A DNA stretch of 64,000 nt from Streptomyces lichenis (GTDB lineage: Bacteria > Actinomycetota > Actinomycetes > Streptomycetales > Streptomycetaceae). The notes beneath the pieces are model-generated. The model was not told the origin of the DNA, made no database searches, and was given only the letters and a program-made list of their open reading frames with translations. Made by a program: the position numbers and the translations under genes. The stretch lies in NCBI RefSeq assembly GCF_023218175.1, contig NZ_JALPTH010000019.1:1-64000 (forward strand), read 5' to 3'. Of this stretch, positions 30,136 to 41,499 are shown one piece after another (positions within the stretch are counted from its first letter, which is position 1; each line of letters starts with the position of its first letter).

Positions 30136-30372
30136 ATGGGCCTGCTGGGAGAACTGCTGCTCCTGCCGGCGGCGCCCGCGCGCGGCACCGTCTGGGTGCT
30201 GCGCCAGGTGATGGCGGAGGCGGAGCGGCAGTACTACGACCCCTCCGCCATCCAGCGTGAACTCGCCCGGCTCTCCGACCGGCTGGACGCCGGGGAGATC
30301 ACCGAGGAGGAGTTCGACCGGCTTGAGGACGACCTCCTCGACCGGCTTGAGAAGGGACCCCCGAACCGATGA
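30136..30372 (+). CDS. gvpG: Gas vesicle protein GvpG (cluster 2)
   Basis: A 78-residue GvpG: hydrophobic start LLGELLLLPAAPARGTVWVL, AERQYYDPSAIQREL and the helical EITEEEFDRLEDDLLDRLEKG. Six bases separate it from gvpF; its stop overlaps the gvpJ ATG by 4 bp. In cluster 1 gvpG is followed by gvpY/Z, here directly by gvpJ. Confidence 0.94.
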   Translation: MGLLGELLLLPAAPARGTVWVLRQVMAEAERQYYDPSAIQRELARLSDRLDAGEITEEEFDRLEDDLLDRLEKGPPNR

Positions 30373-30710
30373 CCATGCCCGCCCCGCGGCCCTCCGCCTC
30401 GATGGCCTACCAGCCGGACGGCGGCGGCGCCAACCTCGCCGACATCCTGGAACGCGTCCTGGACAAGGGCGTGGTGATCGCCGGCGACATCAAGATCAAC
30501 CTGCTGGACATCGAGCTGCTGACCATCAAGCTCCGGCTGGTGGTCGCCTCGGTGGAGCGCGCCAAGGAGATGGGCATCGACTGGTGGGAGAGCGACCCCT
30601 CGCTCTCCTCCCGTGCCCGCCAGGGCGAACTGGCTCGGGAGAACGCCGAGTTGCAGCGGCGCATCGCCGAACTGGAAGAGCGCGCCGAACTGGAGGAGCG
30701 CAACGCATGA
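30369..30710 (+). CDS. gvpJ: Gas vesicle protein GvpJ (cluster 2)
   Basis: A 113-residue GvpA-family protein: NLADILERVLDKGVVIAGDI then KINLLDIELLTIKLRLVVASVE, followed by KEMGIDWWESDPSLSSRARQG and a short coiled coil (ENAELQRRIAELEERAELEER). It is the compact form of the protein; the cluster 1 copy adds about 120 charged residues at this point. Overlaps gvpG and gvpL by 4 bp each. Confidence 0.95.
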   Translation: MTMPAPRPSASMAYQPDGGGANLADILERVLDKGVVIAGDIKINLLDIELLTIKLRLVVASVERAKEMGIDWWESDPSLSSRARQGELARENAELQRRIAELEERAELEERNA

Positions 30711-31666
30711 GCACCGCCGCCCCCGACCTGCGGTATGTCTACGCGGTCACCCGGCCCTTCGACGGCGTCCCGCCGGAGGGCGTCCGGGGCATCTCCGGGC
30801 AGCCGCCGAAGCTGGTGCGCCATGGCGACCTGGTCGCCGTGGTGGACCCGGTGCCGGCCGCCGACTTCGAGGAGGGGCCGCTCAAGGCCCGCCTGGAGGA
30901 CCTGGACTGGCTCGCCGCCACCGCGCGCGCCCATGACGCGGTGATAGCCGCGCTGGCCACGGTGACCTGCCCGGTGCCGCTGCGGCTGGCCACCGTCTGC
31001 CGCGACGACAGCGGGGTGCGGCGGCTGCTGGAGGAGGGCGGCGAGCGCTTCGAGCGCGCCCTCACCCGGCTGGACGGCCGGCTGGAGTGGGGCGTCAAGG
31101 TGTACGCGGAGCAGCCCGCGCCCGCGGCCGGGGCGGCGCCCGAGCGGGCCCCGGCCGGCGGCCAGGCCCGCGGCAGTGGACGGGACTACCTGCGCCGCCG
31201 GATGGAGGCACGCCGCAGCCGCGAGGCCGACTGGGGCCGGGCCGACGCGCTGAGCCGCCGGCTGCACGCCGAGCTGTCCGCGCAGGCGGAGGCGGCCGCC
31301 CTGCACCGCCCCCAGGACGCCAAGCTCTCCGGGGTCCCCGGGGTGAACGTGCTGAACGCCGCGTACCTGGTGGACCGGGCCCGCGGCCAGGAGTTCGCCG
31401 ACCTGGTCCAGGGCTACGCCGAGGAGGGCGTCCAGGTCCGGCTGACCGGACCCTGGGTCCCGTACTCCTTCGCCGGCATCGGCGACGAGGAGCAGCCGGT
31501 CGGCGGTGGGGCGGAGCCGGCCGCCGGTGGCGCACAGTCGTCCGCTGGTGGCGCGGAGCCCGAGCCGGGCCCGAGCGCCGAGCCGACCGCCGGTGGCGCG
31601 GTGCCGGCCGCCGGTGCCGGTGACCGTGGCGGTGACGGGGCCGGTCCCGAGGCGGTACGCGGATGA
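30707..31666 (+). CDS. gvpL: Gas vesicle protein GvpL (cluster 2)
   Basis: A 319-residue GvpL/F-family protein: RYVYAVTRPFDG at the start, CPVPLRLATVCRDDSGVRRLL in the middle, and VQVRLTGPWVPYSFAGIGDE at about 250-265. After this conserved end comes a 55-residue Gly/Ala/Glu/Pro repeat (variants of AEPAAGGAQSSAGG). The cluster 1 GvpL stops soon after the same motif. Overlaps gvpJ and gvpS by 4 bp. Confidence 0.94.
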   Translation: MSTAAPDLRYVYAVTRPFDGVPPEGVRGISGQPPKLVRHGDLVAVVDPVPAADFEEGPLKARLEDLDWLAATARAHDAVIAALATVTCPVPLRLATVCRDDSGVRRLLEEGGERFERALTRLDGRLEWGVKVYAEQPAPAAGAAPERAPAGGQARGSGRDYLRRRMEARRSREADWGRADALSRRLHAELSAQAEAAALHRPQDAKLSGVPGVNVLNAAYLVDRARGQEFADLVQGYAEEGVQVRLTGPWVPYSFAGIGDEEQPVGGGAEPAAGGAQSSAGGAEPEPGPSAEPTAGGAVPAAGAGDRGGDGAGPEAVRG

Positions 31667-31875
31667 GCGCGCCCATGGGGCCGGTGTCGGCCTCCCCGCT
31701 CGCCGAACGCCGGATCGCCCTGGTCGACCTGCTGGACCGGCTGCTGGCCGGCGGGGTGGTGCTCACCGGCGACCTGACCCTGAGCATCGCCGACGTGGAC
31801 CTGGTCCGGGTCGACCTCAGGGCGCTGATCAGCTCGGTCAACGAGAACGTGCCCTCCCCGTTCGAGGTGCGCTGA
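31663..31875 (+). CDS. gvpS: Gas vesicle protein GvpS (cluster 2)
   Basis: A 70-residue minimal GvpA-family protein: RRIALVDLLDRLLAGGVVLTGD then LTLSIADVDLVRVDLRALISS. No N-terminal Pro/Tyr extension, unlike cluster 1. Its TGA overlaps the gvpK ATG (TGATG). Confidence 0.94.
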   Translation: MSAPMGPVSASPLAERRIALVDLLDRLLAGGVVLTGDLTLSIADVDLVRVDLRALISSVNENVPSPFEVR

Positions 31876-32228
31876 TGCGCGACGCCGAGCCCCCCTACGA
31901 CATCCCGCACGACACCTCCTACGACATCCCCTCCGCGGAGGAGCCCGAGCCGGACCCCACCGGCAAGCGCCGGGTGGAACTCGACCCGGACACGATCGAG
32001 CGCGACCTCGCCCGGCTGGTGCTCACCGTCATCGAACTGCTGCGCCAGCTCATGGAGCGCCAGGCGCTTCGGCGCGTCGAGGGCGGCACCCTCAGCGAGG
32101 ACCAGGAGGAGCGCATCGGGCTCACCCTGATGCTGCTGGAGGACCGGATGGAGCTGCTGCGCAGCCGCTTCGGCCTGAAGCCCGAGGACCTCAACATCGA
32201 CCTCGGCCCGCTGGGGCCGCTGCTCTGA
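31875..32228 (+). CDS. gvpK: Gas vesicle protein GvpK (cluster 2)
   Basis: A 117-residue GvpK: VELDPDTIERDLARLVLTVI, ELLRQLMERQALRRVEGG, then EERIGLTLMLLEDRMELLR and LKPEDLNIDLGPLGPLL at the end. It is the last gene of the plus-strand cluster and is followed by a strong terminator at 32262-32292. Confidence 0.96.
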   Translation: MRDAEPPYDIPHDTSYDIPSAEEPEPDPTGKRRVELDPDTIERDLARLVLTVIELLRQLMERQALRRVEGGTLSEDQEERIGLTLMLLEDRMELLRSRFGLKPEDLNIDLGPLGPLL

Positions 32229-32446: not shown

Positions 32447-33187
32447 ATGCCCGTCGTCAACAGCGCAGGTCGCCTGGTGCTCGCCGCCGCGGTGGGGGCC
32501 GGACTCCTCGTCGGCGGCTGCGCCGAGCCACCGCGTCCACCCGCCGCCGCGGTGCGCCCGCCCGCTCCGGCGGCCGGGCCGCCCCGCCCCGCCCCCGCCC
32601 AGGTCCCCGGACTGGGACCGGCCACCCGCTCCCGTATCCCTTCCGGCAGCAGCCAGGCCGTGGTGGTCACCGGCGACGGACCGGACTCCCCGCAGTCCAC
32701 CGTCGTCCTCTACGAGCGCGACCCGGCGGCCGGCTGGCGGGCGGTCAGCCAGTCCTGGCCCGCCCACAACGCGCTGCGCGGCTGGAGTGCCCACCACCGC
32801 GCCGGCGACCTGCGCAGCCCCATCGGGGTCTACACGCTCAGCGACGCGGGCGGCCGGCTGCCCGACCCGGGCACCCGGATGCCGTACGACCAGACCGAAT
32901 ACTTCAACATGCCCGGCACCGGCTTCCTCGGCGAACCGCTGGAAGGCTCCTTCGACTACGTGGTGGCCATCGACTACAACCGGGTCCCCGGCAACACCCC
33001 GCTGGACAAGCGCCGCCCGCTCGGCGACGACGCGGGCGGCGGCGTCTGGATCCATGTGGACCACGGCGGCCCCACCAAGGCCTGCGTCTCCATGGACGAG
33101 GAGGACCTGCGGCAACTGCTGGTCGCCCTGGACCCGGCGCGCGCCCCGGTGATCGTGATGGGTGACGCGGGCACCCTGGGACGCTAG
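32447..33187 (+). CDS. L,D-transpeptidase-like (YkuD fold) lipoprotein
   Basis: A 246-residue exported lipoprotein: signal peptide ending in the lipobox LLVGGC (Cys near 25), a Pro/Ala-rich linker to about 60, then a YkuD-like domain ending in GGGVWIHVDHGGPTKACVSM, where the His and Cys take the places of the L,D-transpeptidase active-site pair (HxxG...S/TxGC/ACVS). This subfamily (often annotated as L,D-transpeptidase or hypothetical) cross-links or edits peptidoglycan, if active. GAAGGAAAGG precedes the ATG. Monocistronic, after the gas-vesicle terminator. Confidence 0.85.
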   Translation: MPVVNSAGRLVLAAAVGAGLLVGGCAEPPRPPAAAVRPPAPAAGPPRPAPAQVPGLGPATRSRIPSGSSQAVVVTGDGPDSPQSTVVLYERDPAAGWRAVSQSWPAHNALRGWSAHHRAGDLRSPIGVYTLSDAGGRLPDPGTRMPYDQTEYFNMPGTGFLGEPLEGSFDYVVAIDYNRVPGNTPLDKRRPLGDDAGGGVWIHVDHGGPTKACVSMDEEDLRQLLVALDPARAPVIVMGDAGTLGR

Positions 33188-36174: not shown

Positions 36175-36768
36175 CTAGCTGATCGTCAGGCTCGTGAAGT
36201 GGATGGTAACGATCTGGGTGCTGCCGTTCTCGACCTTGACGACCCTGGGCTCTTGCAGGGTGAACCGCTTCGTCACATTGCCCGCGAAGTCCAACTGCTC
36301 GAGCGACGCCGACCCGGGCTGGGTCTTGCCGTCGATCAGGTCGGTGAACTGCTGGGACTGATCGGAACCGCGGGTCACGGTCACCGTGCCTGCCTGCGGC
36401 TGCTCTCCGGGGATGAGCCGGAGGCCGTCGGCCGGGTTCTGCTGGGTGGGTTGGTCCAGCGTGATCGCGGAGACCTCGGTGAGGGTGTCCGTGCCGCCGT
36501 CGACGCTCAGCCGGAGCTGCCGGGGGGCGAGCTCCTCGCCCTCCTGGAATTTCAGCTCGCCACCGTCGGGCTGGGACAGCGTCGAGGAGCCCTTCGCGCC
36601 GGCGTCGGGCGGGCCGGTGGGCGAACCGGCCTTCGGGGAGGCACTGGGATGCGGCGCACCGGTGTCCGAGGACCCGGAGCCGCACGCGGTCAACAGTCCC
36701 AGAAGCAGTAAGGCTGCGGCGGCCACGCCGGCCGTGCGGCGGCGCGAGCTGGTGGCGTAACGAGACAT
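36175..36768 (-). CDS. Lipoprotein resembling T4 gp19-type tail-tube proteins
   Basis: A 197-residue exported protein. Signal peptide with lipobox LLTAC (Cys about residue 28), a Ser/Pro/Gly linker to about 65, then a domain reading LRLSVDGGTDTLTEVSAITL, IPGEQPQAGTVTVTRGSDQS, LEQLDFAGNVTKRFTLQEP and IVTIHFTSLTIS. From family knowledge, this order (…KAGEVTVTRG…DTEGxxIKRYxLxNAWP…) is that of phage T4 gp19/contractile-injection tube proteins. A lipoprotein version is unusual. No other tail genes are nearby, so it likely uses the fold in another role. GGGAG precedes the ATG. Confidence 0.7.
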   Translation of the reverse strand: MSRYATSSRRRTAGVAAAALLLLGLLTACGSGSSDTGAPHPSASPKAGSPTGPPDAGAKGSSTLSQPDGGELKFQEGEELAPRQLRLSVDGGTDTLTEVSAITLDQPTQQNPADGLRLIPGEQPQAGTVTVTRGSDQSQQFTDLIDGKTQPGSASLEQLDFAGNVTKRFTLQEPRVVKVENGSTQIVTIHFTSLTIS

Positions 36769-37174
36769 GCGGAGACTCCCTGAGATGCCGATGTCGAGGT
36801 GCACGTGATGCCGTACATACGGGTCACGTGTGAACGCCCCAAGCATGTGCGGCACTTCGTCCACCCAGCCACGAATTCCGGGCAACCCGGGACGGTGGAA
36901 CGCGGAAACACCCTCTGGCCTGGGCATACGCAAAGCCCCTGGAACGCCGGGTTGGAACGCCACACTCCCCGAGACGGTCAGTTGAGTCGCAGCCCGTCCC
37001 TGGCGCCCAGGAGTTCCGGCCGCCGCCGTTTTCCGGGCCTGCTCCGTCGCGGCCCGCAGCGCGGTACGTACGGACCCATGCGCGCTCATGCCGGCGGCAA
37101 GCCCACCGCCGGCCTGCACCATCTCGGCGAGGACGCAGGGGCAGAGGGTCCGTCTCCTCGGACCGTGCGGCCGC
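36769..37174. other. Gap upstream of the gp19-like lipoprotein
   Basis: About 400 bp without a recognisable gene. It must hold the lipoprotein promoter: an AT-richer area with CACGTGATGCCG...TCACGTGTGAACG at 36800-36836 contains two CACGTG hexamers (palindromic). Nothing else stands out. Confidence 0.35.
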
Positions 37175-40320: not shown

Positions 40321-41499
40321 TCACGGCCGCCCGTCGACCAGACCTCCTTCCTCGTCGGGCAGGCGTTCGATCGCGACCAGTGCCGCATCGTCGTCGAGAT
40401 CGCCCTGGACGTGGTGCAGAAGGTCCCGGCGGAGGGCGGTGACCATCGCCTGAAGCGGCCGGTCCGCATGGGCGCGGACGTGTGCGGCCAGGTCGTGGAA
40501 CCGGCCGCCGCGGTCCCGGGCCTCGATGAAGCCGTCGGTGTACAGCACCAACCGGTCGCCGGGGGCGAACGGCACGGTCTCGGCGACCGGGCGGGCGTCG
40601 AGCAGGTCGCCCAGTCCCAGTGGCGCGCCGGGCTGGTCCGGCTCGTGGGGCCGTACCGCCTCCCCACGCAGGACGTACGGTTCCGGGTGGCCGCAGTGCA
40701 CGATCCGGGCCACCGGTTCGCCCGGCGGGAACTCCACCAGGAGGGCGGTCGCGAACCGTTCCGCGAACAGGGCGCCCGCACGGTCCTGGTGCGGCGTCCC
40801 GCCCAGCGCGGCGATCTGGCGCCGGGCCCGCTCGTCCAGTTGCTCCGACACCTCGGTCAGGTCGGCCTCCCGGTAGGCGAGTTCACGGAACGCGCCGAGC
40901 AGTGTCGCCGAGGCGTCCACGGCCGTCAGGCCCTTGCCCCGGACGTCGCCGATGAGCACTCGCGGGCCGAACGGGGTGCGCAGCGCCTCGTAGAAGTCGC
41001 CGCCGATCCGCGCCTCCGACTCGGCCGGCAGATACACGCCGCGCAGCTCCAACGGGCCGATCCGGGGCGGGAGCGGGTGCATCAGCGCGCGCTGCGCGGT
41101 CTCGGCGACCGAACGGACCCGCCGGAGCTGCGTCTCCCGGCGCTGCCGCAGGGAGCAGGCGGCGAGCGAGGCGAGCCCGGCCACGACCAGCGTGGCGAGG
41201 GTGACCTCCCCGTCCGGACGCCCCCAGCGCCCCGAGTCCGCCTGCAGCAGCGCGGTGACGGCGAGGGTGGCCGCGCCGACCGTCGCCGTCGCCCGGCAGG
41301 ACAGCAGCGCGGCGGCCAGCACCGGCACGCCCGCCATCACCGGCAGGACATGCAGCCAGTCGGGGGTCAGCAGGTCGGTCACGGCGACGACCAGCATGAG
41401 CAGCACGGGTGCCGTGCCGGGGAGCAGGGGCGGGTGACGGTGGTCGCGCTCGGTGCCGGTGTCGCGGGGGCGCGTGGTGGTGTGCGGTGAGGTCATCAT
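40321..41499 (-). CDS. Membrane-anchored SpoIIE-type PP2C phosphatase
   Basis: A 392-residue protein: four membrane helices at about 28-130, then a PP2C/SpoIIE domain with GGDFYEAL, LIGDVRGKGLTAVDASATLLGAF, FATALLVEF, LVLYTDGFIEARD and DDDAALVAI, all the metal-binding motifs present. Such proteins dephosphorylate anti-sigma-factor antagonists and release alternative sigma factors. No sensor (GAF/PAS) domain is seen, so the membrane part may sense. The ATG at 41499 overlaps the FUSC stop by 4 bp, so the two are coupled. Target not evident. Confidence 0.9.
   Translation of the reverse strand: MMTSPHTTTRPRDTGTERDHRHPPLLPGTAPVLLMLVVAVTDLLTPDWLHVLPVMAGVPVLAAALLSCRATATVGAATLAVTALLQADSGRWGRPDGEVTLATLVVAGLASLAACSLRQRRETQLRRVRSVAETAQRALMHPLPPRIGPLELRGVYLPAESEARIGGDFYEALRTPFGPRVLIGDVRGKGLTAVDASATLLGAFRELAYREADLTEVSEQLDERARRQIAALGGTPHQDRAGALFAERFATALLVEFPPGEPVARIVHCGHPEPYVLRGEAVRPHEPDQPGAPLGLGDLLDARPVAETVPFAPGDRLVLYTDGFIEARDRGGRFHDLAAHVRAHADRPLQAMVTALRRDLLHHVQGDLDDDAALVAIERLPDEEGGLVDGRP

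Follow-up and report, generated by a model that had tools for sequence, protein, structure and literature searches.

Tail-tube proteins are known as components of phage tails, contractile injection systems (CIS) and type VI secretion systems (T6SS). The locus described here lies in a stretch of 64,000 nucleotides of Streptomyces lichenis DNA (contig NZ_JALPTH010000019.1). It raises the question of how a domain of the tube family comes to be encoded by a solitary gene behind a lipoprotein signal, and what such a domain would do at the cell surface.

The tube-related domain is part of a predicted lipoprotein

The gene, as identified from its open reading frame and with a profile hidden Markov model (HMM) built only from tubes, occupies positions 36175–36768 on the minus strand. 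It starts with the ATG at 36768, its stop codon ends at 36175, and it encodes a protein of 197 residues. A longer reading frame listed for this place begins at 37122 and differs only in its earlier start codon; in favour of the ATG at 36768, a methionine precedes the signal at the identical place in all nine lipoproteins of this kind (described below), and most of them have a GGAG-like stretch upstream of this start.

The protein consists of three parts. The signal (36682–36768), as seen in the sequence and in the alignment of the nine members, has an RRR stretch, a hydrophobic stretch and the lipobox LTAC; it ends with LLTAC, in which Cys29 is the predicted lipidation site, and LLTACGS is aligned in nine of the nine lipoproteins. 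It is followed by a linker rich in Ser, Pro, Gly and Ala (residues 30–75, 36544–36681), which has low AlphaFold2 confidence (block means 35–45). The remainder is the tube-derived domain (residues 76–197, 36178–36543), delineated by HMM, model and structure comparison, in which residues ~83–197 have the predicted tube/Hcp fold. An earlier note on this DNA, made from its letters only, had proposed a lipoprotein with a lipobox whose exported domain keeps the segments AGTVTVTRG and IHFTSLTIS of tail-tube subunits; both segments, the second at the C-terminus, are present in the 197-residue protein, and the signal features agree with the proposed lipobox. The protein is predicted to be a lipoprotein with a flexible linker, and once lipidated its domain would be tethered to the outside of the membrane, within the cell wall or close to it.

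Relation of the domain to the CIS inner tube

The tube-only HMM, built from 18 tube proteins, gives the S. lichenis protein 40.4 bits, whereas none of 10,000 shuffled versions of its domain exceeds 10.0 bits, and a chance similarity to tubes is rejected on this basis. With the same HMM the nine lipoproteins score from 40.4 to 114.1 bits; the two basal members, from Streptomyces sp. DH41 (111.8 bits) and S. gossypii (114.1 bits), also keep the domain start, LQPGDALTAHNFG or LQPGDSLTAHNFA, as found in tubes. A mixed profile of 26 sequences matches the S. coelicolor CIS chain 8bl4_v with an E-value of 4.5e-58. With PF06841 the S. lichenis protein has an E-value of 0.055 and 13.7 bits, below the Pfam cut-off of 28.2; among the seven other lipoproteins scanned (S. 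aurantiacus being left out) this cut-off is passed by three, DH41 (42.0 bits), S. gossypii (37.0 bits) and S. typhae (29.5 bits), and the other four are below it. With TIGR02241 (cut-off 62.4), DH41 (48.5 bits) and S. gossypii (43.7 bits) are both below the cut-off, and the S. lichenis protein is not among the matches. It is almost certain that the last 122 residues are homologous, by descent, to the CIS inner-tube protein (gp19/TIGR02241, Cis1a type), where the label Cis1a follows from the match to the structures 8bl4 and 9gts and from the name that papers on the CIS give to the inner tube.

When the S. lichenis protein is used alone, the phrogs and NCBIfam collections give weak matches, mostly to the signal region, phmmer against the Protein Data Bank (PDB) finds only a designed propeller (E 0.035), and a first scan of contigs with this single query finds no match. 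The search of the S. lichenis genome with PF06841 gives no match and likewise none in the 14 control genomes, and is hence uninformative.

Predicted fold of the domain

The AlphaFold2 model, calculated from the 26-sequence alignment (whole-chain mean pLDDT 68.5, pTM 0.53), has good confidence for residues ~81–104 and 121–197, poor confidence in the hairpin between these regions and low confidence in the signal and the linker. The ten-residue means of pLDDT are 75–96 across most of the domain and 68 and 51 in the hairpin. In the Foldseek comparison with the PDB the top match is chain 9gts_1a of the S. coelicolor CIS (E 2.3e-5), tied with the Hcp chain 7yw0_A and followed by more Hcp, AFP and PVC tube chains; the 13 top-ranking rows have target-normalised TM-scores of 0.41–0.79 and rmsd values of 4.2–6.8. 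The VIA-align Z-scores are 10.7 for a chain of the Hcp2–Hcp3 heterohexamer, 9.0 for 9gts_1a and 7.9 for 8bl4, where values below 8 possibly reflect just a common arrangement, as the tool warns. The domain is predicted from these comparisons to have the tube/Hcp fold. The earlier note had named a different predicted fold as the outcome that would speak against its assignment; the model instead matches the chains of the Streptomyces CIS, AFP, PVC and Hcp, and this match and the score of the tube-only HMM bear out the contractile-tail tube (gp19-like) domain.

Occurrence and origin of the lipoprotein clade

Nine Streptomyces genomes carry the gene: S. lichenis, Streptomyces sp. SID5910, S. californicus NRRL B-2098, S. 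aureoverticillatus JCM 4347, S. aurantiacus JA 4570, S. atriruber NRRL B-24165, S. typhae p1417, S. gossypii N2-109 and Streptomyces sp. DH41. The seven carriers besides DH41 and S. gossypii are referred to as the derived members. A protein search of 199 related genomes matched 68 of them, with one full-length relative (in genome G081, 60% identity) and otherwise partial matches; 29 of the 30 loci listed have open reading frames passing phmmer at E 0.01, and these are two lipoproteins, 26 tubes of ~147 residues and one unrelated protein (L025). A profile of two lipoproteins matched 103 of 392 genomes of the genus at E 1e-8, where the 30 loci listed comprise seven lipoproteins (at least 97 bits) and 23 tubes (at most 61 bits). 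Among the loci listed, the lipoprotein gene is present in at least seven of the 392 sampled genomes. The search of a named collection gave ten loci with eight lipoproteins, six of which lie on contigs equal in length to those of known carriers and are taken as the same genomes, which adds two carriers. Two loci of this collection (L076 and L077), as well as L025, match in the signal region only; they encode other proteins and were dropped.

A class-wide search matched 55 of 394 genomes, and among the 30 loci listed a lipobox is seen at the S. lichenis locus only. The lipobox is also absent in 20 further stretches, 12 from the class search (one repeating L107) and eight from the genus search; at L113 a mildly hydrophobic upstream stretch is seen, without lipobox. 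The searches of phage records and viral contigs find no relative, and plasmid records give five weak partial matches (best E 0.03), one of them annotated as 'phage tail protein'. The plasmid gene with this annotation is at 108242–108598 of a 173-kb Streptomyces plasmid (NZ_CP108387.1; weak match, 50% covered, 30% identity) and possibly belongs to a plasmid-borne tail-like system.

In the tree of 40 domains (nine lipoproteins and 31 tubes) a branch supported at 100/100 separates the lipoproteins from the tubes, and their clade is found in 100% of 200 bootstrap trees. DH41 diverges first and S. gossypii second (97/91). When the tree is rooted at its midpoint, the lipoproteins are within an unresolved group together with 15 tubes (11 from Streptomyces and four from other genera), with weak support (79/94). 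A single origin is compatible with this tree rather than proven by it, as the tree program warns of long branches. The signal sequence is near-identical across the nine lipoproteins, which also favours one capture. Most likely, a cis1a-type gene, probably from Streptomyces, was captured once behind a lipoprotein signal. The best reading of the tree is that the clade afterwards lost ring-stacking parts and that it is now present as a lone gene in various Streptomyces, some of which have a CIS and some not, so that the DH41 and S. gossypii proteins would be living intermediates between a machine part and a solitary lipoprotein.

Segments and residues lost from the tube

The predicted model of the tube from genome G084 was used as a control (five models, pLDDT 64.8–82.7); it has strands β2 (21–44) and β3 (50–68), helices 74–84 and 88–91 and a loop at 123–134. 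In this numbering, tube residues 41–48, 84–89 and 125–133 are unmatched in the S. lichenis protein. The first of these segments, eight residues of the long loop, is missing from the shortened β2–β3 hairpin (residues 105–122, 36403–36456), a low-confidence part of the model; when the two predicted models are compared, β2 has 13 residues versus 24 in the tube and β3 seven versus 19. The second segment lies behind the helix, and in the S. lichenis model one short helix is left (residues 139–145, 36334–36354). According to the alignments the post-helix stretch is absent in all nine lipoproteins, and the tip of the β2–β3 hairpin is gone in the seven derived members, partly in S. gossypii and hardly in DH41. 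The last loop is shorter by nine residues in S. lichenis, SID5910 and S. californicus and by six in the remaining four derived members, and is intact in DH41.

In excerpts of a review (PMC9022992), the long β2–β3 loop is described as providing most of the inter-ring contact in tubes and the post-helix loop as adding to the ring contact in T4-like tubes; mutations of the long loop in lambda and SPP1 are said there to be dominant negative. Stacking into a tube is improbable, because the long-loop tip (in the seven derived members) and the post-helix loop (in all nine) are missing, and the pieces lost along the lineage from tube to lipoprotein thereby include ring-stacking ones. The domain is likely to be non-stacking, with the loop roles given in the review being transferred to the S. 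lichenis protein by inference.

The earlier note had suggested that the domain perhaps forms rings at the surface, and the proposal as it stood is not supported, as ring-joining segments are missing. It is still conceivable that the domain forms single hexameric rings anchored by lipid: its core strands are retained, as are 17 positions common to the tubes and all seven derived lipoproteins, and a trimmed loop need not prevent single rings, because in phage YSD1 the long loop restrains ring assembly (excerpts of PMC9022992). Such rings are nevertheless unlikely in view of the trimmed loops, of the requirement of the N-terminus for tube self-assembly (same excerpts) and of the substitution in the S. 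lichenis protein of tube residues D7, H12, N13, W79 and W116, each near-invariant in the 18 tubes. In total, 27 near-invariant tube residues have a different majority residue in the derived members. The non-stacking, captured tube relative remains the preferred reading of the domain.

Relation to an own CIS

The sheath family PF04984 has no match in the S. lichenis genome (7.12 Mb in 67 contigs, listed as 100% complete), and it is matched in four of the four tube-bearing control genomes. The profile and protein searches also find no second tube in the S. lichenis genome, the one extra place being a match to the signal region only. A functional CIS tube would be cytoplasmic and encoded together with a sheath and a baseplate; what is found here is a lipoprotein signal and no sheath match in the genome. 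Among the neighbours scanned by Pfam are genes for LysR and EamA proteins and for a propeller-type protein, part of which matches cytochrome D1, as well as a reading frame of 93 residues without Pfam match. The remark in the earlier note that no injection-system gene is near thus holds, for PF04984, across the genome.

A sheath match is found in five of the nine carriers, as compared with a genus background of 128/199, and in the nine carrier genomes the lipoprotein shows no visible link to the possession of a CIS. The four carriers without sheath match are S. lichenis, SID5910, S. aureoverticillatus and S. aurantiacus; a sheath gene is possibly missed in SID5910, which has 1040 contigs and is 95% complete, and in S. 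aurantiacus, with 570 contigs and 96%, because these are draft assemblies. With four of nine carriers lacking a sheath match, an own CIS seems not to be required, and it is very probable that the lipoprotein functions without one. For the same reason, being part of a CIS was not kept as the main reading.

A looser relation to the CIS would be that of an accessory protein, in which the lipoprotein serves, for instance, as a platform on the outer side of the membrane where the fired tube docks or lands and is received or capped. This would agree with the descent from a CIS tube, with the sheath match in five carriers and with two reports, in which the S. coelicolor CIS is retained in the cytoplasm (PMC10066040) and needs for its firing the membrane protein CisA, which in tests in Escherichia coli has its C-terminus in the periplasm (PMC12237407). 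An accessory role is nonetheless quite improbable, as five of nine is close to the genus background, as the carriers without sheath match include the S. lichenis genome, listed as complete, and as no sheath-type neighbour is seen in the loci read.

Genomic surroundings

In the other carriers, a partial Pfam scan of the neighbours finds helix-turn-helix, VWA, aminotransferase, histidine phosphatase and AraC-type proteins. Neighbour proteins are common only to S. aurantiacus and S. aureoverticillatus (protein BLAST, seven of the nine loci); for S. typhae and S. gossypii the gene lists were inspected visually. No defence or prophage genes are found among the ten neighbours scanned by Pfam. Of the 36 pairs, 11 have similar upstream DNA (350 nt), in nine cases over at least 127 nt and in two over only 21–25 nt, and one has similar downstream DNA (250 nt), so that the gene tends to retain its upstream region and not its surroundings. 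The nine longer matches are all within two subgroups, one formed by S. lichenis, SID5910 and S. californicus and the other by S. aureoverticillatus, S. aurantiacus, S. atriruber and S. typhae. The region shared by S. lichenis with its two relatives (36769–36962, minus strand) is 75.6% identical to that of SID5910 over 193 nt and 73.9% identical to that of S. californicus over 142 nt, where the neighbours differ.

This region contains the direct repeat GGCGTTCCA-N5-GCGTTCCA (36940–36961, minus strand), and similar stretches align upstream of six other carriers. The repeat is a possible regulator site. It has one exact copy in the genome, at the lipoprotein gene, and three places with two mismatches, and the backwards control gives one; a regulon defined by this repeat is not claimed.

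Further genes are seen nearby. Gas-vesicle genes (GvpL/GvpF, Gas_vesicle and GvpK by Pfam; 30257–32228, plus strand) are a few kb from the lipoprotein gene, and none are found among the neighbours of the other carriers in the partial Pfam scan. A second predicted lipoprotein (32447–33187, plus strand) has a lipobox-like VGGC, resembles an L,D-transpeptidase by eye and has no Pfam match at E 1e-5. A SpoIIE-type phosphatase (Pfam SpoIIE; 40321–41499, minus strand) has an N-terminal part that is hydrophobic by eye.

Selection on the lipoprotein gene

The maximum-likelihood estimates of omega, calculated with F3x4 codon frequencies for pairs that share sequences and are thus not independent, range from 0.18 to 0.57 (median 0.27) in the 21 pairs of derived members. 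Omega is below 1 with a likelihood-ratio statistic above 3.84 in 18 of these 21, the three exceptions being the pairs among S. aureoverticillatus, S. aurantiacus and S. atriruber; one of the 36 lipoprotein pairs (S. lichenis–DH41) hit the boundary and was left out. For the tubes the median omega is 0.09 in 20 of 78 pairs, and purifying selection is approximately threefold looser in the lipoproteins than in the tubes. The significance of omega below 1 in 18 of the 21 derived pairs points to a working gene. For the domain, Nei–Gojobori values of dN/dS approach or exceed 1 in many pairs, and positive selection was considered and rejected, as these values are gone under F3x4; they look like an effect of the extreme GC content at third positions. 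The claim of an arms race was dropped because of the F3x4 range among derived members.

The patchy distribution and the looser selection would also be seen if the gene were a decaying by-product, that is, a tube gene accidentally fused to a signal and now drifting. This is highly improbable, because the frame is open and full-length in nine of nine genomes, the lipobox is invariant and omega is significantly below 1 in most derived pairs.

Possible functions at the cell surface

The best explanation of the data taken as a whole, put forward tentatively, is that a captured tube relative that does not stack is acting as a decoy. A tethered non-stacking tube subunit would provide exclusion or immunity at the exterior of the membrane by docking on incoming devices built from tubes or on the cargo of their lumen, which may be tape-measure-type phage proteins or tape-measure-related CIS effectors, and this docking would hinder passage through the membrane. 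The decoy mechanism by itself, which is argued by analogy, is doubtful. Precedents for it are the lipoprotein Ltp and the effectors of the Streptomyces CIS. In the accessible parts of PMC3952083, Ltp is placed outside the membrane, where it stops the injection of phage DNA, and a title cited there gives the tape measure protein as its target; the effectors include tape-measure-related proteins, for which the authors speculate on arrival at the membrane (PMC11126660 and PMC13277306, in excerpts). A retained docking ability is assumed, as the kept tube surfaces are not mapped. It counts against the decoy that there is no arms-race signal (omega below 1 by maximum likelihood) and no visible CIS association in the nine genomes. 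The lack of a match to PADLOC defence families (five proteins, two being lipoproteins of the clade), of defence or prophage genes among the neighbours and of phage or viral relatives in the records searched also counts against it. The further proposal that a membrane-tethered shield captures or jams incoming contractile or phage tubes or their tape-measure-type cargo and spreads as a one-gene accessory trait, machine-free strains included, is decidedly doubtful.

It is about as likely as the decoy, and equally a tentative proposal, that the domain is a surface binding module unrelated to the CIS. In such a module the small β-barrel would be a stable scaffold, and the helix, the loop and the β4–β5 region would bind a cell-wall polymer, a small ligand or a partner protein. 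This agrees with the four carriers without sheath match and with the residue pattern: at 26 positions the derived members share an invariant residue that is not the one of most tubes, and 16 of these positions fall within residues 139–175 (the 26 include L144, Q150-P151 and Q172-E173-P174-R175), and the segment 137–152 has the highest mean agreement (0.92). A binding module leaves unexplained why a tube was chosen, and no gene for a ligand or partner is retained alongside in the loci compared. If the lipoprotein interferes with tubes or cargo, as the decoy would, it is an immunity factor derived from a machine; if it does not, it is still a clear reuse of a nanomachine subunit outside its machine.

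Comparison with known systems

No lipoprotein with a tube domain is described in the literature matches listed, as judged by titles and starts of abstracts, in a search that includes few subscription papers and leaves out bioRxiv preprints; the word 'lipoprotein' is absent from the main text, as available, of four papers on the Streptomyces CIS (PMC12237407, PMC10066040, PMC13277306 and PMC11126660). The lipoprotein appears to be an unusual exaptation, in which a nanosyringe subunit is reused at the cell surface.

The closest known protein is the Cis1a-type inner tube of the Streptomyces CIS (8bl4, 9gts), which is homologous over the domain, has the same predicted fold and is in the nearest group of the tree. 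The CIS tubes have ~147 residues and no signal and, in genomes in which tube and sheath genes were both placed (G038 and G081, for example), the two are adjacent, whereas the S. lichenis lipoprotein adds a lipoprotein signal and a linker, is without the stacking segments and is encoded by a solitary gene. The predicted fold is also that of Hcp, the ring-forming tube protein of T6SS (VIA-align Z up to 10.7), but the identity is 4–16% in the Hcp rows of Foldseek and VIA-align, and the likeness is seen at the level of structure. TssJ is a T6SS lipoprotein with a transthyretin-type fold; it is part of the membrane complex and not a relative of the tube, and the likeness is that of a lipoprotein tied to an injection machine. 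Ltp, the superinfection-exclusion lipoprotein of phage TP-J34, would be alike in being tethered to the membrane and encountering proteins derived from tails, provided that the decoy idea is right. Ltp is carried by a phage and its action is demonstrated (PMC3952083, in the parts available), whereas the action of the lipoproteins of the clade would follow by analogy; this likeness would be functional, and no homology is claimed.
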